Assembly (NCBI GenBank): GCA_027049035.1
Contig: JALTVI010000026.1
Span: 1-64,000 of the forward strand
DNA: 64,000 nucleotides
Source: Sulfurovum sp.
GTDB lineage: Bacteria > Campylobacterota > Campylobacteria > Campylobacterales > Sulfurovaceae
Reading direction: 5' to 3'
Under the pieces are notes generated by a model. The model was not told the origin of the DNA. It did no database searches and worked only from the letters and a program-made list of their open reading frames with translations. Positions 1 through 12,183 of this stretch are shown here, piece after piece. Every line of letters begins with the position of its first letter. The first letter of the stretch is position 1. The translations under genes were made by a program, and so were the position numbers.

Positions 1-142
1 ATATGGGCTTGCATTTGACTTACTGTATGTCCACTTCTTCTCATTCAAACATTCTAACACATTTGTAGAAGCTAAAGCCTTGCACTGAAAGTGCATAGTT
101 TTGGACTAGCGTATTTGGGACAATAAAAATATTAGATGATAT
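1..142. other. Left edge, no confident gene
   Basis: AT-rich sequence downstream of the lasso precursor (which reads leftwards). A 15-nt hairpin (TGCACT-GAA-AGTGCA, 81-95) could end the lasso transcript but has no strong U-run. A short minus-strand frame is open to the window edge over roughly 60-1, too little to name. Lasso cyclase and RRE genes, if adjacent, would have to lie left of the window. Confidence 0.4.
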
Positions 143-259
143 TTATGATCTGTAATTTGAACTTTGCCCATCCGTTGTAGTACTACCTGTATTCCCAAGC
201 GTTCTCTTAACAATTGAATCCAGCTTTTTAAACACTGGTGCTTTATACACTTTTTTCAT
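143..259 (-). CDS. Lasso peptide precursor (38 aa)
   Basis: Small precursor of a ribosomally made lasso peptide. The ATG at 259 is chosen because AAGGA lies just upstream; a longer in-frame reading has no such site. The leader (residues 1-21) carries the YxxP motif read by RRE proteins (Y5, P8), then L13-D14, and ends Thr-Leu, so Thr is at position -2 as lasso proteases require. The predicted core is GNTGSTTTDGQSSNYRS: Gly1 could form an isopeptide with Asp9 (9-residue ring), leaving an 8-residue tail ending in Ser17. Leader spacing, Asp9 and the terminal Ser parallel paeninodin, whose C-terminal Ser is phosphorylated by a neighbouring HprK-like kinase. Such a kinase is the next gene upstream here. 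Function is inferred from motif and neighbours; target or activity unknown. Confidence 0.8.
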   Translation of the reverse strand: MKKVYKAPVFKKLDSIVKRTLGNTGSTTTDGQSSNYRS

Positions 260-326
260 TATATTCCTTTCGTATAAAATAATTAAATTATAACACAAAA
301 ATTCTCTAGCCTCCCAAAGGGAAATT

Positions 327-1217
327 CTAAACAAATTTTAAATTTTTACTATGCCTATATATTATACCATACACCTCTCCCAACCTCTTCTTATCCCATG
401 GCACAGTCACATGAAAAACCCTGATAGTGTTCGACATCTGCGCCAGGTACTTCATGCGCTGCGGTTTCAACCATGAAAACATATAGAGATAATTGGGCAA
501 AAGTACATCAAACTTCGCAAAACCTTTAATCTCTTCTATGCTGATCTCTGCATCACCGTCTACACCTTCAAGTTCATAAAAAGCATGGATAGGTTTAAAA
601 CTGTCCGTAAACTTTTCAACCCTGTACCCCAACTCTTCAAACTTTCTGTAAGGTCTATGGTAAGGGTGAGAACCAACAGCCATAAATTTACCATTTTGAA
701 TAAAGGTTGGCACCTTATCATCTGAGATGAAAGGATGTCCCTGTTTGATGAAATAATCCGTCATCGTCGATTTGCCGCCCATAGAGGGAGCGATGAAAAA
801 GATGGGTTTTCCCTCTACTTCAACAGCTCCAGCATGAAAAAAATCATACATATTTTCCAAAGTCATATAGAGTGGCAACAGCAGATGAATGAACCAGAAA
901 CCCAGCAAAGCGGCATCGCCTTTTTCACCCAACGCATAATAAATCGTTCGCTCGCCACCTGCCCAGTAAAATTTCACCACATCTTCAACCTCATAACACC
1001 ACGGCTGACCTGCTTCACTGCCGTCAAATTCACGATCACTGTACAGATAGACATTTCGACCATGTGCCCAATAGAGATAAAAACCGCAGGTGATGGAATT
1101 TTTAAGCAACTTCAGAATGTTTGAAGAGAGTTTTACTTCATAGCGTGTTTCCGTCTCCTGCGAAAGATCCAGAGGGAAAGCAATGTCAGATATTATCTTT
1201 GTGCCATAAACAATCAT
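327..1217 (-). CDS. HprK-like kinase of lasso peptide locus
   Basis: About 296 residues from ATG 1217, which overlaps the B2 stop (ATGA) and has GGGGG upstream; an in-frame GTG at 1229 is possible. The C-terminal two thirds resemble the HPr-kinase fold: a P-loop (APSMGGKST, around residue 150) followed by ISDDK, the usual metal/phosphate loop. The N-terminal third is unique to the subfamily and probably binds the peptide. In lasso clusters such kinases phosphorylate the last Ser of the precursor. The precursor here ends in Ser, so that is the likely reaction. Translational coupling to B2 and position directly before the precursor support a biosynthetic role. It lacks the HPr-specific context (no PTS genes nearby). 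Confidence 0.75.
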   Translation of the reverse strand: MIVYGTKIISDIAFPLDLSQETETRYEVKLSSNILKLLKNSITCGFYLYWAHGRNVYLYSDREFDGSEAGQPWCYEVEDVVKFYWAGGERTIYYALGEKGDAALLGFWFIHLLLPLYMTLENMYDFFHAGAVEVEGKPIFFIAPSMGGKSTMTDYFIKQGHPFISDDKVPTFIQNGKFMAVGSHPYHRPYRKFEELGYRVEKFTDSFKPIHAFYELEGVDGDAEISIEEIKGFAKFDVLLPNYLYMFSWLKPQRMKYLAQMSNTIRVFHVTVPWDKKRLGEVYGIIYRHSKNLKFV

Positions 1218-1672
1218 TCTTTCCCCCACTCAAATACCGACAGCACAGTAAACGCTTCATGCCCTCTCCCCCCGGTAATGATGATATCTCCGCACTGTGT
1301 CCATGCGTGGGCTTTCATTTTCGCTTCGCTCTCTTCATCTTTGGCGGCTCCCAGATAGAATACGCCGGCTATCCCCCGTTTTTGCAGCATCTTCTGTGCC
1401 GTCAGAGACTGTGCCAGACAGGCGCTCTCCCACGGCGTGTAGGCTGACGCCCTTCCGATAGCCTCTCCGATCTGACGGGCCGTCCGCATCTCCTCTTCAT
1501 TCAAAGGCGCAAGCTTTTCTACATTGGTTTTATGTTCCAAAGAGCGAGTCAAGCGCTTAAAGGAGATGGTCAGGATCGCGGCACGCATCTTACCTAGAGT
1601 GACATACGCTTCTATAAAAAGTTTTTTCTCTTCGGAGGAGAGCGCTGAGAATTTTTTAAATTTTTGGATCAT
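1214..1672 (-). CDS. Lasso peptide B2 leader peptidase (transglutaminase-like)
   Basis: 152 residues from ATG 1672 (GGGAGG six bases upstream; it overlaps the end of the ABC gene). This is the cysteine-protease half of the lasso B enzyme, which removes the leader peptide. Visible family features are the catalytic Cys in WESACLAQSL, the hydrophobic GIAGVFYLGA strand and the catalytic His in KAHAW, followed by an Asp in GD. There is no PqqD-like RRE domain, so a separate RRE (B1/E) protein must exist elsewhere if the pathway is active. The preceding ABC gene and following kinase overlap it, indicating one operon. Confidence 0.8.
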   Translation of the reverse strand: MIQKFKKFSALSSEEKKLFIEAYVTLGKMRAAILTISFKRLTRSLEHKTNVEKLAPLNEEEMRTARQIGEAIGRASAYTPWESACLAQSLTAQKMLQKRGIAGVFYLGAAKDEESEAKMKAHAWTQCGDIIITGGRGHEAFTVLSVFEWGKE

Positions 1673-3428
1673 CAAAATCCTCCCTGATCAACCCTTTTTC
1701 CTGCAGCGATTTATAGCTTCCTTCAGCCTTCACTCTGCCCTCTTCAATGAGGTAGATATGGTCTGCCTGTTTGATGGTCGTTGTTCTGTGGGCGATGATG
1801 ACGGTCGTTCTGCTTTCAAGAAAAGGAGCCAGTGTTTCATAGAGATGGAACTCGGTCGCATTGTCGAGTGCTGAGGTGGCTTCATCGAAAATGACGATCT
1901 TCGGGTCGGAGAGGATCAACCGTGCGATGGCGAGTCTCTGTCGCTGGCCTCCCGAAAGCCGGATGCCATTCTTGCCGATGCGGGTTTCAAGGCCCTCTTC
2001 CAACTGACGTACAAAGCTTTCGAGCTGCGCAGCTTTGAGCGCTTCGTAGATCTCTTCGTCACTTTTTGCTTTGGAAAGGGTAAGGTTCATGCGGATCGTG
2101 TCGTTGAAAAAGAGTGCCTGCTGCAGCATCAGCGCCACATTTTCACGTACCACAGGCAGACCAATCCGTTCTATGGGGACATCTCCGTAACATATCTCTC
2201 CCCTATGGGAAGGATAAAACCCCACCATGATCTGCGCAATGGTCGTCTTGCCGCTGCCGCTGGGGCCGATGAGTGCAATCTTCTGCCCGGCTTCCGCTTT
2301 CAGGGAAATGTCATGCAGCACCTCTTTGCCGTTGCCGTAAGCAAAACGGATATGTTTCAAAGCAACAGAGGTTGTTTGTCTGCCGTCAAAAGGGTCGCTT
2401 TCGTGCGGGTAGTGCGGCTCCTGTGCCAAAGAAAGCAGGGAATTGATACGCTCGAGCGCCGGTTTGGTACTCTGGTAGGAGATGACCAGTCCCATGAGCT
2501 GCTGGACAGGCTGTACCAGTGTGGAGAGGTAGAACAGAAAGGCGATCATCATTCCGATGGTCAGGTCCGAGTAGGCCACCGCTGCGATACCCAGTGCTCT
2601 GAAGATATCGACCACAGTATTGGTCAAAAGGGTGGAGGAGCTGTGGGCGACAGCGGCTTTGTAGCCGTGATTAAGCGAAGCTTCCTCTATACTTTTTGCA
2701 CGATCCTGCAGAATGCCGAAAAAACTTCGCTCCTGATTGCTAGCGCGTACCTGAATGAAGAGTTCGAGTGTCTCGTTGAGCAATTCATGGTAGAGTTCGT
2801 AGGCTTCATGCTGGCGGCGCAGCAGCTCTCCTGTTTTGCGTCCGAGCAGTCTTGAAAAACCCAAAAAGAGCGGATTAAGCAGGAATACCAGCAGGGCAAG
2901 TACCCAGTTCATCCAGAACATGACTGCAGCGATACCCACCAGCATGAGCGAGGCACTCAATAGTGTCGTTACCATCTGTCCCGCAAAGCCGCTGACGTTT
3001 TCAACATCCTGTATCGTTTTGGAAGCGATACCGCCAGACTTGAGCGTTTCATACTCGGAAAGAGACACCCGTTCAAGATGATGCAAAATACGATGGCGCA
3101 GCAGATAGCTGATCTTCTCCGTGATCCTGGTGGCGTAAAAGGTTTTTTTGTTGTTAAAGAAAAAAGCAGTGAAACGCAACAGCAGTACCACCAGTAATAT
3201 CACGGCAATATAGACCCAGGGCTCGTCCGTGTCGAACAGTACAGAGAGCGTTTCCGTCACTTTTCCGGGATGCTCCAGCAGTACTTCATCGATAAGAAGG
3301 GGGATGAGCATCGGGATGGGAAGCAGCAGCAGTGTTGCCAGAATGCCATACACATTGGTACGCCAAAAATCGCCCTTCTGGGTTTTAATCTGATCGTAAA
3401 GCGTCCTGAACGTATATCTGCCCCTCAT
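1656..3428 (-). CDS. ABC transporter, probable lasso peptide exporter
   Basis: 590 residues: an N-terminal six-helix membrane domain (about 25-310) fused to an ATPase domain with Walker A GPSGSGKTT, signature LSGGQRQRLAIARL, Walker B IVIFDEATSALD and the switch His in IIAHR. This is the half-transporter layout of lasso D proteins, which export the mature peptide and give self-immunity. It is first in the run ABC-B2-kinase-precursor, all overlapping or closely spaced. The upstream gap to ribA is only 52 bp and holds ATTCATC-type heptamer repeats. Specific substrate is inferred only from context. Confidence 0.8.
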   Translation of the reverse strand: MRGRYTFRTLYDQIKTQKGDFWRTNVYGILATLLLLPIPMLIPLLIDEVLLEHPGKVTETLSVLFDTDEPWVYIAVILLVVLLLRFTAFFFNNKKTFYATRITEKISYLLRHRILHHLERVSLSEYETLKSGGIASKTIQDVENVSGFAGQMVTTLLSASLMLVGIAAVMFWMNWVLALLVFLLNPLFLGFSRLLGRKTGELLRRQHEAYELYHELLNETLELFIQVRASNQERSFFGILQDRAKSIEEASLNHGYKAAVAHSSSTLLTNTVVDIFRALGIAAVAYSDLTIGMMIAFLFYLSTLVQPVQQLMGLVISYQSTKPALERINSLLSLAQEPHYPHESDPFDGRQTTSVALKHIRFAYGNGKEVLHDISLKAEAGQKIALIGPSGSGKTTIAQIMVGFYPSHRGEICYGDVPIERIGLPVVRENVALMLQQALFFNDTIRMNLTLSKAKSDEEIYEALKAAQLESFVRQLEEGLETRIGKNGIRLSGGQRQRLAIARLILSDPKIVIFDEATSALDNATEFHLYETLAPFLESRTTVIIAHRTTTIKQADHIYLIEEGRVKAEGSYKSLQEKGLIREDFDDPKI

Positions 3429-3480: not shown

Positions 3481-4056
3481 TCAAAGCAGATGCCCCATTT
3501 GTTCCTTCTTCGTCTTAAGATAGGCTTCATTATGCGGATTTGGCTCCATTTTGATAGGAAGCCGTTCAACGATTTTTATATCTGGCAGACTCTCCATCTT
3601 GGCAGGGTTGTTGGTCAGCAGTTTGAGCTTCTTTATGCCCAGATGGTGCAAAATGAATTCGACGATCTCATAGGTACGCTCATCGGCACGGAAGCCCAAC
3701 TGGTGGTTAGCTGCAACCGTATCAAAACCCTGGTCCTGCAATGCGTAGGCGTTGACCTTGTTGAGCAGGCCGATGTTACGCCCCTCCTGACGGTGGTAGA
3801 TGACCAGTCCTCCCTCTTTGGCAATGAGGTCGAGTGCGAAGTCCAGCTGTTCTCCGCAGTCGCACTTGACCGAGCCGATGGCATCGCCGGTAAGGCACTC
3901 CGAGTGCACACGTACGATAGGTGCTTCAAGTGTAGAGAGGTTTTCGGTAAAGATGGCCAGATGCTCTTTTCCAAGATCGTCTTTGAAGGCTTGTATCTTG
4001 AACGTGCCGTGTATGGTCGGCAAAGTGGCAATTTGTGAGATCTCGATGTTTTTCAT
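3481..4056 (-). CDS. ribA: GTP cyclohydrolase II
   Basis: 191 residues. It converts GTP to 2,5-diamino-6-ribosylamino-pyrimidinone 5'-phosphate, first step of riboflavin synthesis. The zinc ligands are visible in HSECLTGDAIGSVKCDCGEQL, followed by the family run RQEGRNIGLLNKVNAYALQ and the GTP-binding segment. Length is normal for a stand-alone RibA without the RibB domain. A TATAAT box lies six bases before the ATG on the minus strand, so the message may be leaderless. Divergent from hemB; convergent only with heptamer repeats at its 3' side. Confidence 0.93.
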   Translation of the reverse strand: MKNIEISQIATLPTIHGTFKIQAFKDDLGKEHLAIFTENLSTLEAPIVRVHSECLTGDAIGSVKCDCGEQLDFALDLIAKEGGLVIYHRQEGRNIGLLNKVNAYALQDQGFDTVAANHQLGFRADERTYEIVEFILHHLGIKKLKLLTNNPAKMESLPDIKIVERLPIKMEPNPHNEAYLKTKKEQMGHLL

Positions 4057-4147: not shown

Positions 4148-5122
4148 ATGTTCACCCGTTTCAGACGAAAAAGAATCCACCCCGTACTGCGGGACCTGCT
4201 GCAGGAAACAACCCTGAGCGTCAACGACTTCATCTATCCGCTTTTTGCCAAAAGCGGCGAAGGATACAAAGAAGAAGTTGCCTCCATGCCCGGTGTCTAC
4301 CAGATGAGCATCGATGAGATTGTCAAAGAGTGTGAAGTACTCAAAGCACTTGGTATCAAGTCGGTCATTCTTTTTGGTATCCCCGATGTCAAGGACTCTG
4401 TAGGGAGTGATGCAATGTGTGAGCACGGCATCATCGCCGAAACCGTTAGGGCCGTCAAGGCGGCACATCCGGATATGTTCGTCGTCACCGACCTGTGCTT
4501 CTGTGAATATACAAACCACGGCCACTGCGGTGTGCTCGACCCGGTACTTGAAACGGTTGACAACGACATCACGCTTGACAACCTTGCCAAACAGGCGGTT
4601 GTCCATGCCAAAGCAGGCGTCGACATGATTGCACCCAGCGGTATGATGGACGGGATGATCCAGGCGATTAGAAACGGGCTTGACAACACCGGTTTTGTCA
4701 ACCTCCCTGTCATGAGCTACTCCACAAAGTTCGCTTCAGCCTATTACGGCCCCTTCCGTGACGTGGCAGAAAGCGCGCCAAGCTTCGGAGACCGAAGAAG
4801 CTACCAGATGAACCCCGCCAACCGCCGCGAAGCCATTGCAGAGTCTGTAGCCGACGAAATGGAAGGTGCGGACATTCTGATGGTCAAACCCGCCCTTGCC
4901 TATATGGATGTCATCCGTGACGTAAGAGAGAACACCACCCTCCCATTGGCAGTCTACAATGTCAGCGGCGAATACAGCATGCTCAAGATGGCAGCAAAAG
5001 CCGGTGTCATCGACTACGACAGAGTCATGATGGAGACCCTGCTCGGCTTCAAACGTGCGGGCGCAGATATCATCATTACCTACCATGCGAAAGAAGCGGC
5101 GGAAATACTGAGTAGAAGGTAG
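4148..5122 (+). CDS. hemB: Porphobilinogen synthase
   Basis: 324 residues from ATG 4148, preceded by GAAGG. It condenses two 5-aminolevulinates to porphobilinogen in haem synthesis. The active-site lysines are seen in the conserved runs MSYSTKFASAYYGPFR and LMVKPALAYMD, and the zinc-type cysteine cluster appears in DLCFCEYTNHGHCGV. The last two codons and stop (Arg-Arg-stop) are formed by the first units of a GTAGAAG heptamer array, so the natural C-terminus was probably rewritten by the repeat. Promoter-like GGTAAAAT precedes it. Confidence 0.95.
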   Translation: MFTRFRRKRIHPVLRDLLQETTLSVNDFIYPLFAKSGEGYKEEVASMPGVYQMSIDEIVKECEVLKALGIKSVILFGIPDVKDSVGSDAMCEHGIIAETVRAVKAAHPDMFVVTDLCFCEYTNHGHCGVLDPVLETVDNDITLDNLAKQAVVHAKAGVDMIAPSGMMDGMIQAIRNGLDNTGFVNLPVMSYSTKFASAYYGPFRDVAESAPSFGDRRSYQMNPANRREAIAESVADEMEGADILMVKPALAYMDVIRDVRENTTLPLAVYNVSGEYSMLKMAAKAGVIDYDRVMMETLLGFKRAGADIIITYHAKEAAEILSRR

Positions 5123-5220
5123 AAGGTAGAAGGTAGAAGGTAGAAGGTAGAAGGTAGAAATTTTTCATATGCTCACTTATGCCAACCTTAACTACTCCCT
5201 TCTCCCTGTCACCTACTCCC
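5112..5220. repeat. GTAGAAG heptamer array at hemB 3' end
   Basis: Six or more tandem GTAGAAG units, followed by pyrimidine-rich repeats such as CTACTCCC. The first unit carries the hemB stop codon. The same unit ends the amidase gene at 6,511. Confidence 0.9.
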
Positions 5221-5237
5221 TTTAAATTCACTCAAAC

Positions 5238-5893: not shown

Positions 5894-6511
5894 ATGTATC
5901 TCAAACACAAAACCGCCGCTTTTTTTGCACTGCTGATCTTCATACTGCTTGGCTATATCTTCTACGAAGCGCTCAAACCGCCTGTTCCCGTTATTATTCA
6001 GGCCGGTCACGAGGGGCGTACCTGCGGCAATACCGGAGCAGTGTGCAAAAACTACAAAGAGGTGGAGTGGAACATCTATATCGCCGATGAAGCGGCAAAA
6101 ACGCTTCGGAAATGGGGCATAGAAGTCAAACGCATTCCCGCTGATACCACGCCGATACGTGCCAATATCGCTGTGGCCATCCACTTCGACTCGGCAAAAC
6201 ACATCTGCCGCTCCGGCGCGTCGGTGGGCTATCCGAATACCAATGCTTCACGTACCTTTGCCCAACACTGGAAAGCGATCTACAAACCCTACTTTCCTTT
6301 TCACTGGCATCAGGACAACTTTACCGAAAACCTCAAACACTACTACGCCTACCACACCATTCACGCCCAAAAGTTTCTGGTACTCGAACTGGGCGAGATC
6401 ACCTGTGAAAAGCAGACACGCTGGCTGAAACCGAGGCTGAAGAAGATCGCACATCTGGTGGCGTATGCGATTGCGAAAGAACTTGGAGTGGAGGTAGAAG
6501 GTAGAAGGTAG
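5894..6511 (+). CDS. Membrane-anchored N-acetylmuramoyl-L-alanine amidase-like protein
   Basis: 205 residues. One N-terminal membrane helix (about 8-28), then an Amidase_3-like domain facing the periplasm. Candidate zinc ligands are His in IIQAGHEGR, Glu in YKEVEWN and His in VAIHFDS; the candidate catalytic Glu is in LELGEIT. This would cleave the amide between muramic acid and L-Ala in peptidoglycan. It is short compared with AmiA/AmiC types and lacks AMIN or SPOR domains. The final residues Arg-Arg-stop come from a GTAGAAG heptamer array. Divergent from the toxin-antitoxin pair. Confidence 0.7.
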   Translation: MYLKHKTAAFFALLIFILLGYIFYEALKPPVPVIIQAGHEGRTCGNTGAVCKNYKEVEWNIYIADEAAKTLRKWGIEVKRIPADTTPIRANIAVAIHFDSAKHICRSGASVGYPNTNASRTFAQHWKAIYKPYFPFHWHQDNFTENLKHYYAYHTIHAQKFLVLELGEITCEKQTRWLKPRLKKIAHLVAYAIAKELGVEVEGRR

Positions 6512-6549
6512 AAGGTAGAAGGTAGAAGGTAGAAGGTAGAAGGTAGAAA
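6494..6549. repeat. GTAGAAG heptamer array at amidase 3' end
   Basis: About eight GTAGAAG units. The stop codon of the amidase gene is inside the array. Confidence 0.9.
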
Positions 6550-6907
6550 TTTTTCATACTTCTACTGAATCGAACCTTAGTACCTTTTCGGAAGCGAAGA
6601 TTTAACGAAGTGTATACCTTTAGGTGAATCTTCGCCCAAACGCTTAACGGCAGAATAGCGTTAGGCGGGAGTATCCCGTGAAGGGGATACACTTCGATAA
6701 AATCTCCGATTCCAAAAAAACTTGGAAATAAAGATCCTCACCCATGCCAGGACTGACAAAAAACAAATCTCAAACCACCAATAACCAATACACCAGTTAC
6801 CAATAACAATATATACAGATACCGCTTCAAACCGAAACAAGCACAACTATGGTAAAATATTCTCTTTTAAATTTGCACCGTTGTGTATGGTGTACAAGGA
6901 CAGTCCG
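6550..6907. other. Intergenic region with inverted repeats, no gene
   Basis: About 360 bp. It holds an imperfect inverted pair (CGAAGTGTATACC near 6,610 and GGATACACTTCG near 6,680), a short hairpin CGCTTAACG/CGTTAGGCG near 6,645, and ACCAATA-type repeats near 6,775-6,810. The argF promoter is probably GGTAAAAT at about 6,851. No supported coding region. Confidence 0.5.
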
Positions 6908-7828
6908 ATGAGACACTTTTTGACACTGGCAGACTTCACCAAAGAGGAGCTGCTGGAGATGATCGCTTTGGCGCAGAAGATCAAAGCGCAGACCAAACGC
7001 AAAGAGTTCGTGCCCTACATGGAGCGTCAGACACTGGGGATGATCTTCGAGAAGAGCTCCACACGTACCCGTGTGAGTTTCGAGACAGGCATCTACCAAC
7101 TTGGCGGTGTGGGGCTATTTCTTTCAGCAAATGACATTCAGCTTGGCCGAGGCGAGCCAATGAAAGATACCGCCCGTGTTATCAGCCGTATGGTCGATAT
7201 GGTAATGATCCGTACTTTTGAGCAGAGCAAACTCGAAGAGTTCGCAACCTACTCCAAAGTGCCTGTCATCAACGGCCTGACCGACAGCTACCATCCCGTA
7301 CAGTTGATGACCGACTACCTGACTATGCTCGAGTTTGGCAAAGGCGAAAACCCCGTCTGTGCCTATGTAGGTGACGGCAACAATATGGCGCACTCTTGGC
7401 TGATGCTGGCAAGCAAACTCGGCTTTGAACTGCGTATCGCCACACCGAAAGGCTACGAATGCGATCCGCAGGTGGTTGCAAAGGCAGGTGAGTTTGCCAG
7501 AGAGAGCGGTGCCAAGCTTGTGTTTGGCAATGACCCAAAAGCAGCTGTTGCAGGATGCGACGTGGTCACTACCGACACATGGGTCAGCATGGGGCAGGAG
7601 AATGAGAAAGAGATCCGCCTCAAAGCCTTTGAGGGGTACATGATCGATGAAGCGATGATGTCGCTTGCCAAAGAGGATGCCATCTTCCTCCACTGCCTGC
7701 CTGCCTACCGCGGCTACGAAGTGAGCGAAGAGACCTTCGAAAAACACGCTGACGAGATCTTCACCGAAGCGGAGAACCGCCTGCATGCGCAGAAGGGGAT
7801 TATGGTGTGGCTGGATCAGCACCGCTGA
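6908..7828 (+). CDS. argF: Ornithine carbamoyltransferase
   Basis: 306 residues from ATG 6908, with AAGGAC upstream; in-frame ATGs at 6881 and 6887 are less well placed. It makes citrulline from ornithine and carbamoyl phosphate. The carbamoyl-phosphate motif [10 protein letters not shown], the HPVQ segment, the DGNNMAHSW ornithine loop and HCLPAYRG are all intact. The last codons and the bases after the stop form a perfect 12-bp inverted repeat (GGCTGGATCAGC/GCTGATCCAGCC, 7809-7835), followed by GCGTTCA heptamers. Confidence 0.95.
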
Positions 7829-8030: not shown

Positions 8031-9392
8031 ACTATTGATCTGGAAAAATTCGCCAAATACTCCAAACCGGGGCCGCGTTACACCTCCTACCCGACTGCGC
8101 TGGAGTTCAGTGATGCATTCAAGTATGACGATTACATCGACTACCTCGAGAAGGGTGACGAGAAGCTCTCGCTCTACGTACACCTCCCGTTCTGCCGCAG
8201 TGCCTGCTACTTCTGCGGATGTAACGTCGTCTTCACCTCCAAAGAGGAGAAGCTGAGCCAATACATCGAGTATCTCAAAAGAGAGATCGATATTCTCGCA
8301 CAGCACCTCGATACCTCCAGAGAGGTGATCCAGTTTCACTTTGGCGGCGGCACGCCGACTTTCTACAAAGCCTTCGAACTGGACGAGATCGTAAGCTATA
8401 TCAAGTCGAAGTTCCCCAACTGGAGTGACGATGCTGAAATCAGCGTCGAGATAGACCCGCGTTTCTTCAACGAAGAGCAGATGAAAGTCTTCGCCAAGCA
8501 CGGCTTCAACCGCATCAGCTTCGGGGTGCAGGACTTCGACCCGAAGGTACAGCAGGAGATCCACCGCATCCAGCCCTACGACCTGACCAAGGCCGCCGTC
8601 GACCTGGCACGCAGATACGGCATAAACTCGATCAACGTCGACCTCATCTATGGCCTCCCCTACCAGACTTTCGAGAGCTTCAAGGCCACTCTGCAGAAGG
8701 CATTCTCGCTTGAACCGGACAGACTGGCGGTCTTCAACTACGCCCATGTACCCTGGCTGAAGAAAACGATGCGGAAATTTGACGAAACCACGCTGCCAAG
8801 CCCCGATGTGAAACTGCAGATTTTCCAGTACACCATCGACTTTTTCGAAAACAATGGTTACAGAATGGTCGGAATGGACCACTTCGCTAAACCCGAAGAC
8901 GAACTCTTCGCCGCGATCGAAAAGGGTGAACTGCACCGAAACTTCCAGGGTTACACCACCAAAGGGGGCGCGAACCTCATCGGTATCGGCCTTACCAGCA
9001 TTGGAGAGGGGAGCCGCTACTACGCACAAAATACCAAAGATATGAAGGTATACGAAGCGGCCATCGATGCAGGCAAGTTGCCCTTTGAACGGGGTGTCAG
9101 CCTCAGCGATGACGACTATCTGCGAAAGGCGGTCATCATGGAGCTGATGGCCAACTTTGCCATCGACATCGAACGTGTCGAAAAAGAACACAATATCGTC
9201 TTTAGCGACTACTTCGACGATGCGCTGGAGGAGCTGCAGGAGTTTGTCGATGCCGACCTTGTCACCGTCACCGACAAAAAGATCACCGTCAGCCCCACCG
9301 GCACCCTGCTGATCCGCAACATCGCCATGCCTTTCGATGCCTATATGCACCAGTATGCGGGAAGCAAGAAGAGTTTCTCGCAAACAGTATAA
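8025..9392 (+). CDS. hemN: Oxygen-independent coproporphyrinogen III oxidase
   Basis: 455 residues from TTG 8025; AAAAGGA lies seven bases upstream, and the longer in-frame reading only translates repeat sequence. A radical SAM enzyme decarboxylating coproporphyrinogen III in anaerobic haem synthesis. The HemN cysteine motif is seen in HLPFCRSACYFCGCN, then FGGGTPTF, the SAM-binding SFGVQDFDPKVQ and the HemN-specific R(x)nYTTKGG region. It starts inside a 21-nt hairpin that could gate translation. Confidence 0.93.
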   Translation: MSTIDLEKFAKYSKPGPRYTSYPTALEFSDAFKYDDYIDYLEKGDEKLSLYVHLPFCRSACYFCGCNVVFTSKEEKLSQYIEYLKREIDILAQHLDTSREVIQFHFGGGTPTFYKAFELDEIVSYIKSKFPNWSDDAEISVEIDPRFFNEEQMKVFAKHGFNRISFGVQDFDPKVQQEIHRIQPYDLTKAAVDLARRYGINSINVDLIYGLPYQTFESFKATLQKAFSLEPDRLAVFNYAHVPWLKKTMRKFDETTLPSPDVKLQIFQYTIDFFENNGYRMVGMDHFAKPEDELFAAIEKGELHRNFQGYTTKGGANLIGIGLTSIGEGSRYYAQNTKDMKVYEAAIDAGKLPFERGVSLSDDDYLRKAVIMELMANFAIDIERVEKEHNIVFSDYFDDALEELQEFVDADLVTVTDKKITVSPTGTLLIRNIAMPFDAYMHQYAGSKKSFSQTV

Positions 9393-9406
9393 GTTTGGTT
9401 AAGAGT

Positions 9407-9581
9407 TATGGTATGCTTTTCTATCGAAAAGCTTTTGTTTAAAAGGATAAGAATGAGAAATGAGGAGTTAGCAATGAGTAATGAGCAACCGAAAAAAGAT
9501 AAAAGCATTGCGCAGCAATGCATACCGACACTCTTCACTCTTCACTCTTCACTCTTCACTAAAAAACTCCAAAGGAGTTTT
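9407..9581. repeat. Composite repeat between hemN and the Fe-S protein gene
   Basis: Reverse module GGTATGCTTTTC...GAAAAGC (9410-9436); spacer rich in GAGTAATGA-like units; forward module AAAAGCATTGCGCAGCAATGCATACC split as arms 9500-9526; four CTCTTCA heptamers (9530-9562); hairpin AAAACTCC-AAA-GGAGTTTT (9563-9581) containing the ribosome site of the next gene. Confidence 0.9.
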
Positions 9582-9583
9582 AT

Positions 9584-10897
9584 ATGAAAACCCCCGAAGA
9601 GCTATTTAATTTCACCGAAACCAGTGACGCATGTATCAAGTGCGGAAAGTGTATTCCTGTCTGTACGATCCACCAGATAAACCCTGACGAGACCACCTCA
9701 CCGCGCGGATTCATAGACCTGCTTGGCGCCTACCAGCAAGGACATCTGCCTCTGGACAAAACAGCCAAAAACATTTTCGAAAGCTGCTTTCTCTGTACCA
9801 ATTGTGTCGATGTCTGTCCCAACTCTCTGCCGACCGATATGGTCATTGAAGAGGTACGAGCCGACCTCGCCGAGAAGTACGGCATCGCCTGGTTCAAACG
9901 TGCTGCCTTTTTCCTCCTGGAGAATAGGAAGATCATGGACATTGTCATGAAATTCGGATATATGTTCAAAACCTGCGTACTGGCTGAAGATGAAAAGGGA
10001 CGCGGACTGCGTGCACGCTTCTCCATGCCGATGGTCAAAAAGGGACGGCTGCTTCCCTCCATGGCGAAAACAAGCTTCCTTAATAGCTACCCGGATACCA
10101 TCCCCTCCGAGGCACCTACCGAGAAAAAGCAGAAGGTCGCCATCTTCATCGGCTGTCTGGCGAACTACAACTACACCACAATCGGTGATGCGCTGGTAGA
10201 GATACTCAAACAGCTCAATGTCGATATGGTTATTCCAAAAGCACAGCAGTGCTGCGGTGCACCCGCCTACTTTACCGGAGCGGTCAAGTCCGTTGAACGG
10301 ATGACAAAAAAGAATATCGAACTCTTCGAGAGCCTATCGGACGATGTTGATGCCATCCTTATTCCCGAAGCGACCTGTTCGGCAATGGTCACACATGACT
10401 GGGAGGTCTTTTTCAAAAACCATAAGATGCCCGAATGGGAAGCACGCGCAAATGAGGTTGCAAAAAAGGTACACATGGCTACAGAATGGCTGCACAACAA
10501 TACCGAGCTGGCATCTCTGCTCAAAGAGAAGGGAAAACAGTTCGACGAACTTGTCACCTACCACGACCCCTGCCATGCCCGCAAGGTACAGGGTATATGG
10601 CAAGAGCCGAGAAATCTGCTTGGTGCAAACTATCCGATGGTCGAGATGAGCGACCCCAACCGCTGCTGCGGTTTTGGCGGTGTAACGATGCAGACAGAGA
10701 AGTTCCACTTCGCCGAAGCTGCCGGAAAACCCAAAGCGGCGATGATCGATGAGACCAAGGCGCATTATGTCAGTGCAGAGTGCTCCGCATGTCGGGTACA
10801 GATAAGCGAATCAATGAACAGTGCCGATGTGGAGACGATTTTCAAAAATCCGCTGGAGTTGATTGCGGAAGCGCTTAAAAGTGATAGTGGGGAGTGA
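9584..10897 (+). CDS. GlcF/LutA-like Fe-S oxidoreductase subunit
   Basis: 437 residues. Two N-terminal [4Fe-4S] motifs (CIKCGKCIPVC and CFLCTNCVDVC), then two CCG domains (GCLANYNYTT...QQCCGAPAY and YHDPCHARK...RCCGFGG), the arrangement of glycolate oxidase GlcF, GlpC and LutA/LldE. It probably passes electrons from a flavin dehydrogenase to the quinone pool or a heterodisulfide-type partner. A GlcD-like FAD subunit is encoded at 51.7 kb, a plausible but unlinked partner. The last residues (KSDSGE) and stop lie in an AGTGATAG repeat. Confidence 0.8.
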   Translation: MKTPEELFNFTETSDACIKCGKCIPVCTIHQINPDETTSPRGFIDLLGAYQQGHLPLDKTAKNIFESCFLCTNCVDVCPNSLPTDMVIEEVRADLAEKYGIAWFKRAAFFLLENRKIMDIVMKFGYMFKTCVLAEDEKGRGLRARFSMPMVKKGRLLPSMAKTSFLNSYPDTIPSEAPTEKKQKVAIFIGCLANYNYTTIGDALVEILKQLNVDMVIPKAQQCCGAPAYFTGAVKSVERMTKKNIELFESLSDDVDAILIPEATCSAMVTHDWEVFFKNHKMPEWEARANEVAKKVHMATEWLHNNTELASLLKEKGKQFDELVTYHDPCHARKVQGIWQEPRNLLGANYPMVEMSDPNRCCGFGGVTMQTEKFHFAEAAGKPKAAMIDETKAHYVSAECSACRVQISESMNSADVETIFKNPLELIAEALKSDSGE

Positions 10898-10955
10898 TAG
10901 TGATAGAGGAATCTATCTCATACACTATCAACTATCACTCATAACTATCACTACT
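10880..10955. repeat. AGTGATAG / CTATCACT opposed arrays
   Basis: AGTGATAG units reading out of the Fe-S gene face CTATCACT units reading toward the histidine-kinase 3' end, forming an inverted pair of arrays. The stop codon of the Fe-S gene is inside. Confidence 0.8.
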
Positions 10956-12183
10956 TTTCAGGTACCAACATAAAGATATTGCTCCCCTCCTCATGCCTGT
11001 ACCCCAGCCGGTAACCGATCTTCTTTAGAATACTGTCGACGATGTAGAGCCCCAGTCCGAAACCGGCACTGCGCTTCTCCGCCTGTGAAAAGGGTTCGGT
11101 ATAGTAGGAGAGCGGATGTTCGAGCGGATCGCCTTTGGAGACCACTTCTATCATGCCGTTGTGGGTACGCAGCAGGGCACATTTGTCCTTACCGTACTTG
11201 AGGGCATTGTCCAGCAGGTTTTTGAGCACCAGCACCATCAGCTTCTTGTCGGTTGTCAGCGCCATCTCTTCCACTTCGGTATGCACACAGCTTCCATCCG
11301 ACATCAGCAGGTCCTTGCTCTCTTCAATCAGTTCGCTGAGCATAATGTATTCGAAGTTTGGCTCGAAACTCTGGGTGGTGACCCGTTCGATCTCAGCAAG
11401 CTCGGAGATGAGTTCGTTCATACGCTCGAAGGCACGGATAAGTACCTTTTTGGTCGCTTCGTCATCGAGCATTTCAACGACAATGCGTCCTTTTGTAATG
11501 GGCGTTTTGAGCTCGTGCATCAGGTTTCGCATAAAGAGGTTCTTCGACGTGCTCAAGTGGTCGATATGTTTGATGGCATCGTCGAAGCTTTTGGCAATTT
11601 TACCTATCTCGTCATCGTGTTCGTAGGTGATTTCGACATTCATATCGCCCTGTGCGAAACGCTGGATCTGCTGATGGAGCTTCTTGAGAGGGTAGAGTTT
11701 TTTGAGAACGGCGAAATAGAGCAGCAGCAGCAGAACAATCAGAATCACTCCAAGCGTTACGGCGATTTCGTAGAAGAAATTCTCAGGAGCGGCATCTTCC
11801 AAAAGCAGGTTATAACTCATCCGCTGCACATAGATGTAGCGCTTTCCGTCAAGGTTGAAGACACGCACCTGCCCAAGCAGTTGTGAGCCGCCTCGGAAAA
11901 TCGTTTCGCCCCGTTCCATGATCTCCTTTTTGATTTTTTCCTCCTTCTCAGGGGCAATCGGCTTGACATGCAGCTCTTTGTAGAGCTTTTCAAGCTCCTG
12001 CTGCGAAGGGTAGAGACGGAGGTTGGAGAGAAATGTCAAAGAGATAAGCTGGTAGCGTTTAAACTCGTCGATCTTCTGCCTGTCCTTGTTCCAGAAGTGA
12101 AAGAGGGTAAAGGTGGCCACCAGAATGATGATCGCCACCGAAAAGAGAATGTGGATAAAGGTGGTAACGGAGAGGTTTCTCAT
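10951..12183 (-). CDS. Sensor histidine kinase (ArsS-like)
   Basis: 410 residues. Membrane helices near 8-28 and 140-162 flank a periplasmic sensor of about 110 residues; then HAMP (LKKLYPLKKL...), the DHp H-box FMRNLMHELKTPITKGR and an ATPase domain with N box LKNLLDNALKYGK and G box GFGLGLYIV. Most like the ArsS/acid-sensing kinases of Campylobacterota. It overlaps the regulator gene by 4 bp (ATGA), so the pair is translationally coupled. Signal unknown. Confidence 0.85.
   Translation of the reverse strand: MRNLSVTTFIHILFSVAIIILVATFTLFHFWNKDRQKIDEFKRYQLISLTFLSNLRLYPSQQELEKLYKELHVKPIAPEKEEKIKKEIMERGETIFRGGSQLLGQVRVFNLDGKRYIYVQRMSYNLLLEDAAPENFFYEIAVTLGVILIVLLLLLYFAVLKKLYPLKKLHQQIQRFAQGDMNVEITYEHDDEIGKIAKSFDDAIKHIDHLSTSKNLFMRNLMHELKTPITKGRIVVEMLDDEATKKVLIRAFERMNELISELAEIERVTTQSFEPNFEYIMLSELIEESKDLLMSDGSCVHTEVEEMALTTDKKLMVLVLKNLLDNALKYGKDKCALLRTHNGMIEVVSKGDPLEHPLSYYTEPFSQAEKRSAGFGLGLYIVDSILKKIGYRLGYRHEEGSNIFMLVPEK

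Follow-up and report, generated by a model that had tools for sequence, protein, structure and literature searches.

The first 64,000 nucleotides of a contig from Sulfurovum sp. (GenBank assembly GCA_027049035.1, contig JALTVI010000026.1; hereafter, the window) begin with genes for an ATP-binding cassette (ABC) exporter, a B2 leader protease, an HprK-like kinase and a 38-aa lasso peptide precursor. Does this member of the Sulfurovaceae, a relative of Campylobacter, make a phosphorylated lasso peptide, and if so, which residue carries the phosphate? We consider it probable that these four genes are one half of a complete cluster, whose product is a phospho-lasso peptide with the C-terminal Ser17 as phosphate acceptor. 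A phospho-lasso cluster was the central claim of a sequence-only reading of this DNA, and it is supported by the genes present, by synteny and by an association between kinase clade and terminal Ser in the precursors, from which phosphorylation is deduced. The four genes do form a single run on the minus strand (143-3428), as that reading had described:

143-259, minus strand: lasso precursor (A), 38 aa; leader at 197-259 (MKKVYKAPVFKKLDSIVKRTL), core at 146-196 (GNTGSTTTDGQSSNYRS), stop codon at 143-145; ribosome-binding site AAAGGAA
146-148, minus strand: codon of the terminal Ser17, the probable phosphate acceptor judging from counts of C-terminal Ser beside K1-clade kinases
327-1229, minus strand: HprK-like peptide kinase, clade K1; GTG start; catalytic His128, Lys149-Ser150 and Asp166-Asp167 (A2 numbering)
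1214-1675, minus strand: B2 leader protease, transglutaminase-like, with SACLAQ...AHAW...GD motifs; sole copy in the genome
1656-3428, minus strand: MsbA-like ABC exporter (D), 70-90% identical to those in the lasso loci of most relatives in the genus

The precursor gene starts with an ATG at 259, preceded by its ribosome-binding site, and reaches its stop at 143; the open reading frame originally listed for it (143-334) extends beyond the real gene. The leader has Tyr(-17), Pro(-14), Phe(-12) and Thr(-2), which are the canonical lasso leader positions (PMC10368454), and the core has Asp9 and the terminal Ser17. The YxxP leader with Thr at -2 and the core suited to a Gly1-Asp9 ring and ending in Ser, all noticed earlier, are therefore present. 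The peptide has the features of lasso-class precursors, namely a Y/WxxP leader, Thr(-2), a small residue 1 and Asp/Glu at 7-9, and a strict leader/core pattern matched once in the window and never in 60 shuffles. No family model matched the precursor, including that of paeninodin (NF033524), while two precursors found beside other K1-clade kinases (L039 and L032) score near its cut-off of 27 bits (26.5 and 24.6). The B2 protease is readily assigned, matching the NCBIfam model NF033537 (lasso_biosyn_B2) with 98.4 bits against a cut-off of 33.

A complete cluster also requires a cyclase and a RiPP recognition element (RRE; RiPP, ribosomally synthesized and post-translationally modified peptide). 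Both are missing from the window, as had been remarked, because it starts at a contig end: the genome is a 2.49 Mb assembly in 92 contigs, and base 1 of the window is base 1 of contig C22 (84,965 bp). The two genes were found on contig C72, which assembly evidence makes a neighbour of C22, so that the possibility raised earlier of a genome with no cyclase anywhere is rejected. The features that bear on this junction are:

Window 1-124, no strand: one end, of about 124-127 bp, of a mobile element that is repeated in the genome; it includes a subterminal hairpin, and contig C69 begins with it too
Window 3481-4056, minus strand: ribA-like gene, the conserved flank outside the lasso locus; named from sequence, no profile scan
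C72 98-1936, minus strand: Asn-synthase-like lasso-type cyclase, 612 aa, at the very start of the contig
C72 7931-8212, beside rsmG: discrete RRE/B1 (PqqD), the sole PqqD/RRE of the genome

The best NCBIfam match of the cyclase is the lasso cyclase model NF033535 (E 1.6e-97, over the N-terminal half), with a score of 327.7 bits that is under the cut-off of 525. It reads MSGF and so lacks the Cys2 of AsnB (MCGI in the AsnB of this genome), retains SGGMDS and falls outside the AsnB clade; a housekeeping role as AsnB was rejected, as a separate MCGI... AsnB is encoded on C85. The RRE scores 60.9 bits with PF05402 and 58.4 bits with the Bacillota lasso model NF033536, under the cut-off of 80, and its homologues in the same genus sit in intact lasso loci. 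The first 127 bp of C22 are identical to those of C69, and those of C72 to those of C57; these shared sequences are the two ends of one repeated mobile element, whose subterminal hairpins resemble those of IS200/IS605-like elements. It is because of this element that the assembly breaks between precursor and cyclase. The wecB gene (UDP-GlcNAc 2-epimerase) is split between C69 and C57 (Epimerase_2 profile positions 1-196 and 202-291); joined, the two parts form one open frame, which a second copy of the element interrupts. Since wecB is whole only as C69+C57, a pairing of C72 with C69 was rejected and C22 and C72 are neighbours by elimination, presuming two element copies. Independent support comes from L092, a contiguous locus of the same genus that reads rsmG-RRE, cyclase (plus strand), precursor (minus strand), kinase-B2-ABC-ribA. 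Its cyclase, 49% identical to that of C72 over 611 aa, converges with the precursor gene at a distance of 26 bp, the same layout as inferred for C22 and C72.

The kinase resembles HprK models in the P-loop region only. It scores 18 bits with PF07475 (cut-off 33.3) and 16.8 bits over 44 residues with TIGR00679, the model of true HprK (cut-off 240). Over 215 columns, most of its length, it aligns (hhalign 99.3%) with kinases from Priestia, Paenibacillus cellulosilyticus and Butyrivibrio, each belonging to a lasso cluster that is annotated as such or can be recognised as one; the Priestia precursor carries a paeninodin family annotation. A grouping with true HprK, named beforehand as fatal to the phospho-lasso reading, was thus not what we found. 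The AlphaFold model (mean predicted local distance difference test score 84) has the HprK/P kinase domain as its best Foldseek match (E 1e-6). His128, Lys149-Ser150 and Asp166-Asp167 are invariant in A2, and the P-loop reads APSMGGKST compared to GxSGAGKST in the references. In a tree, the lasso-locus kinases of the window's group form three clades, K1 (which includes the window kinase), Kx and K2. A plasmid search gave only distant kinases, which served as references; in this tree of long branches, which does not include PadeK, the four reference kinases stand together and K1, Kx and K2 apart, with the deep order unsure. None of five genomes searched yielded a true HprK above the cut-off, and the tree consequently has no HprK root. 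K1 kinases in most lasso loci lie between B2 and the cyclase or precursor, and many of these kinase genes share a few bases with B2 or the cyclase gene.

Comparing precursors across these loci suggests which residue the K1 kinases modify. Precursors were searched by leader motif, blind to the last residue. Beside K1 kinases, 13/16 precursors end in Ser (the window, L028, L030, L032, L034, L039, L040, two each in L082 and L084, L092 and L099), whereas beside Kx and K2 kinases none of ten does (L026, L027, L079, L080, L081, L083, L085, L091, L094 and L098; Fisher p = 1.1e-4). Counted by locus, the contrast is 11/14 versus 0/10 (p = 1.5e-4). Loci in which no precursor was found (L035, L037, L087-L090, L095 and L100), owing to short contigs or to precursors not beside the genes, were left out of the counts. 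Ser makes up 15.7% of core residues, and the precursors ending in Ser include both leader types and accompany cyclases of several lineages. For example, G475 (L084, a complete chromosome) and G512 (L082) each encode, genome-wide, a single K1 kinase and a single RRE, together with two unrelated precursors, W(-15)/Glu8 and Y(-17)/Asp9, and all four precursors end in Ser. Two cyclases accompany the two precursors in each of these loci. The use of a single RRE for W and Y leaders is not surprising in itself, as FusB1 does the same (PMC13381572). Taken together, the association of the K1 clade with terminal Ser, drawn from sequence comparison, supports phosphorylation of the C-terminal Ser.

Several observations weigh against this reading. 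Three K1 partners end in other residues (L031 in Gly, L078 in Pro and L096 in Gln). Terminal Ser also occurs away from K1: the L101 precursor ends in Ser in a genome whose kinase is Kx-type and on another contig, and so does a second L098 precursor (282-392), 2.4 kb from a K2 kinase. Counting these two as contrary cases gives 13/16 versus 2/12 (p = 1.6e-3). Additionally, among the four clusters that no K1 kinase adjoins, the precursors of L086, L093 and L097 end in Ser and that of L029 in Ala, and with all non-K1 cases counted the comparison becomes 13/16 versus 5/16 (p = 0.011). Related loci inherit kinase and precursor together, so the association is not fully independent. The window kinase has Ala at the position of Gly163 in BsfK, a residue found important in that enzyme (PMC10368454), and at the very C-terminus of the C72 cyclase a few residues have been replaced by sequence of the mobile element (PLWTESP). 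Finally, BsfK and LppK, albeit distant kinases, modify Ser3 of their substrates (PMC10368454, PMC13381572).

This last precedent underlies the alternative that survives best, in which the kinase phosphorylates a ring residue, Thr3 or Ser5, both present in the window core, and the terminal Ser is incidental, as its occurrence in the three clusters without K1 could also suggest. We regard this as unlikely. Positions 3 and 5 are not conserved as Ser/Thr among K1 partners (GGNFA, TGSSQ, GGNNP, SGLVD and GGAWD), whereas the last residue is Ser in most of them, and Ser/Thr at position 3 or 5 is more frequent in the sister-clade (Kx/K2) precursors.

Even less probable is that the cluster is decaying and makes no peptide. 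Element junctions are present on both contigs, the element has entered between precursor and cyclase, and the final codons of the altered cyclase C-terminus derive from it. However, every reading frame is open and the catalytic motifs are intact, the element sits between convergent genes and past the precursor stop, and the alignment with the L092 cyclase extends to all but the last few, poorly conserved residues.

That the kinase acts on a non-lasso target and leaves the lasso peptide unphosphorylated is very improbable: a second kinase, K2 (38% identical), adjoins a 70-aa peptide on C72 that resembles a twin-arginine translocation (Tat) signal and has a YSAPVL motif, so that non-lasso substrates are possible for kinases of this family, but K1 lies between B2 and cyclase or precursor in most loci, overlapping its neighbours in many, and in two genomes it is the sole such kinase and is accompanied by two precursors.

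Tat-signal-like peptides of this type (68-83 aa, YxAP motif) occur in L010 (C72; 5937-6149, with 6178-7068), L027 (4558-5671), L083 (11796-12989) and L099 (4557-4805). They are directly beside a K2 kinase in the first three, and no kinase was seen adjoining in L099. A P-domain/LamG protein and a 237-339-aa protein are encoded upstream of the peptide and K2. Peptide and K2 are possibly a separate phosphopeptide system that uses the single RRE.

How does the window cluster, with Ser17 as the favored acceptor, compare with known systems? C-terminal Ser phosphorylation of lasso peptides is established for PadeK (paeninodin, Paenibacillus dendritiformis), ThcoK, SyanK and PsmK (PMC9266682). Like those systems, the window's has a discrete RRE and B2, a cyclase, an ABC exporter and an HprK-like kinase, and it shares the terminal Ser and, as had been predicted, a possible nine-residue ring closed at Asp9. 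The leader spacing was also said to match paeninodin; instead, the window leader has Y(-17), the spacing of most lasso leaders, and not the W(-15) of the paeninodin family, whose precursor model it does not match. Other differences from paeninodin are a cyclase of another lineage, an RRE several kb away beside rsmG and a locus in which no nucleotidyltransferase gene was noticed, and the kinase is only 20-27% identical to those of the two paeninodin-like Bacillota clusters compared. By analogy, the window cluster may work like paeninodin, given the terminal Ser and HprK-like kinase common to both, although the leader and precursor-model features of the family are absent. The Bsf cluster (Bradymonas sediminis, PMC10368454) is similar in its Y(-17)xxP leader, HprK-like kinase, discrete B1 and B2 and Gram-negative host, but BsfK modifies core Ser3, the Bsf core ends in Asp, and Ile(-2) stands in place of Thr(-2). 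The linear polyphosphorylated peptides (LPP) of Bacillota, made with LppK (PMC13381572), share an RRE, an HprK-like kinase, an MsbA-like exporter and a YxxP leader; unlike the window, they have no B2 or cyclase of their own, use a SipW-like leader peptidase and carry phosphate on Ser3. With HprK/P the kinase has in common the C-terminal kinase domain fold, the P-loop, the His and the paired Asp, but it scores far under the family cut-off, the similarity spans about 60 residues and the N-terminal region differs.

We found no lasso peptide from Campylobacterota described in the literature searched, which took in few subscription journals, making this weak evidence of absence. In the genomes themselves, B2 is present in 8/397 drawn from the class and in 29/175 of the Sulfurovaceae, 24 of these belonging to the window's genus, and lasso clusters of the window's kind thus appear to be common in the family. 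A ribA homologue lies beside the lasso genes in L027, L028, L078, L080, L082-L084, L089-L092 and L095, and in L027, L078, L080, L082, L084, L091 and L092 the locus is bracketed by ribA and, at the opposite end, rsmG. The window's minus-strand order (ribA-like gene, ABC transporter, B2, kinase, precursor), first thought unusual, follows the exporter-B2-kinase order common in the genus. Metagenome-assembled genomes labelled Deltaproteobacteria, Proteobacteria and Methyloprofundus also contain kinases closely related to the window's; IMG/VR yielded no relatives. L035, from the one named Methyloprofundus sp., encodes a lasso cyclase and a K1 kinase that shares 70% identity with that of the window; either the genes were transferred to a gammaproteobacterium or the contig is mis-binned. 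In L031, a single 699-aa frame (8996-11095) runs through the lasso cyclase into the precursor (WCKPQMKILDVKSTM / GGNNPKNNESLTADHYLDVFGGASG), which could be a fusion of cyclase and substrate or could result from loss of a stop codon or from an error in sequencing. Elsewhere in the window, short repeats on the minus strand (5076-5231 and 6399-6692), read as NFYLLPSTFYLLPSTFY in spurious open reading frames, are probably an intergenic repeat.

A possible mechanism takes its order of steps from published work on PadeK, BsfK and B1. The RRE would bind the YxxPxF leader and hand the precursor to the kinase, which would phosphorylate the C-terminal Ser17 on the linear precursor. B2 would then cleave after Leu(-1), and the cyclase would activate Asp9 with ATP and close the Gly1-Asp9 lactam around the tail. 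The ABC transporter would export the 17-residue phospho-lasso peptide, with a predicted monoisotopic mass of 1793.685 ([M+2H]2+ 897.850). While the gene identities, motifs, synteny and kinase/terminal-Ser association can be read from sequence, we infer that the peptide is made and threaded and that Ser17 is the acceptor.

Beside Kx-type kinases, the precursors of L079, L080, L081, L083, L091 and L094 have Ser/Thr at ring positions 3 and/or 5 and no terminal Ser, and Kx-partner cores start with GGSGS, GQSGS, GGSGT or GSSGT; a BsfK-like ring acceptor is conceivable in these precursors. A broader and more tentative hypothesis is that the loci between ribA and rsmG are one family at one site, in which kinase clades are interchangeable modules that set the site of phosphorylation. 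K1 would direct it to the C-terminal Ser irrespective of leader type, ring size and cyclase lineage, Kx and K2 to another site, perhaps a ring Ser/Thr near positions 3-5, and one RRE would serve W- and Y-leaders in the same cell. The loci compared share a genomic site, differ in kinase clade and have cores that are almost wholly different save for the last residue. The Sulfurovaceae loci may therefore amount to a natural experiment on what sets the phosphate site of a lasso kinase, and the family, with its many variants, would be a new place to study the role of phosphate on lasso peptides.

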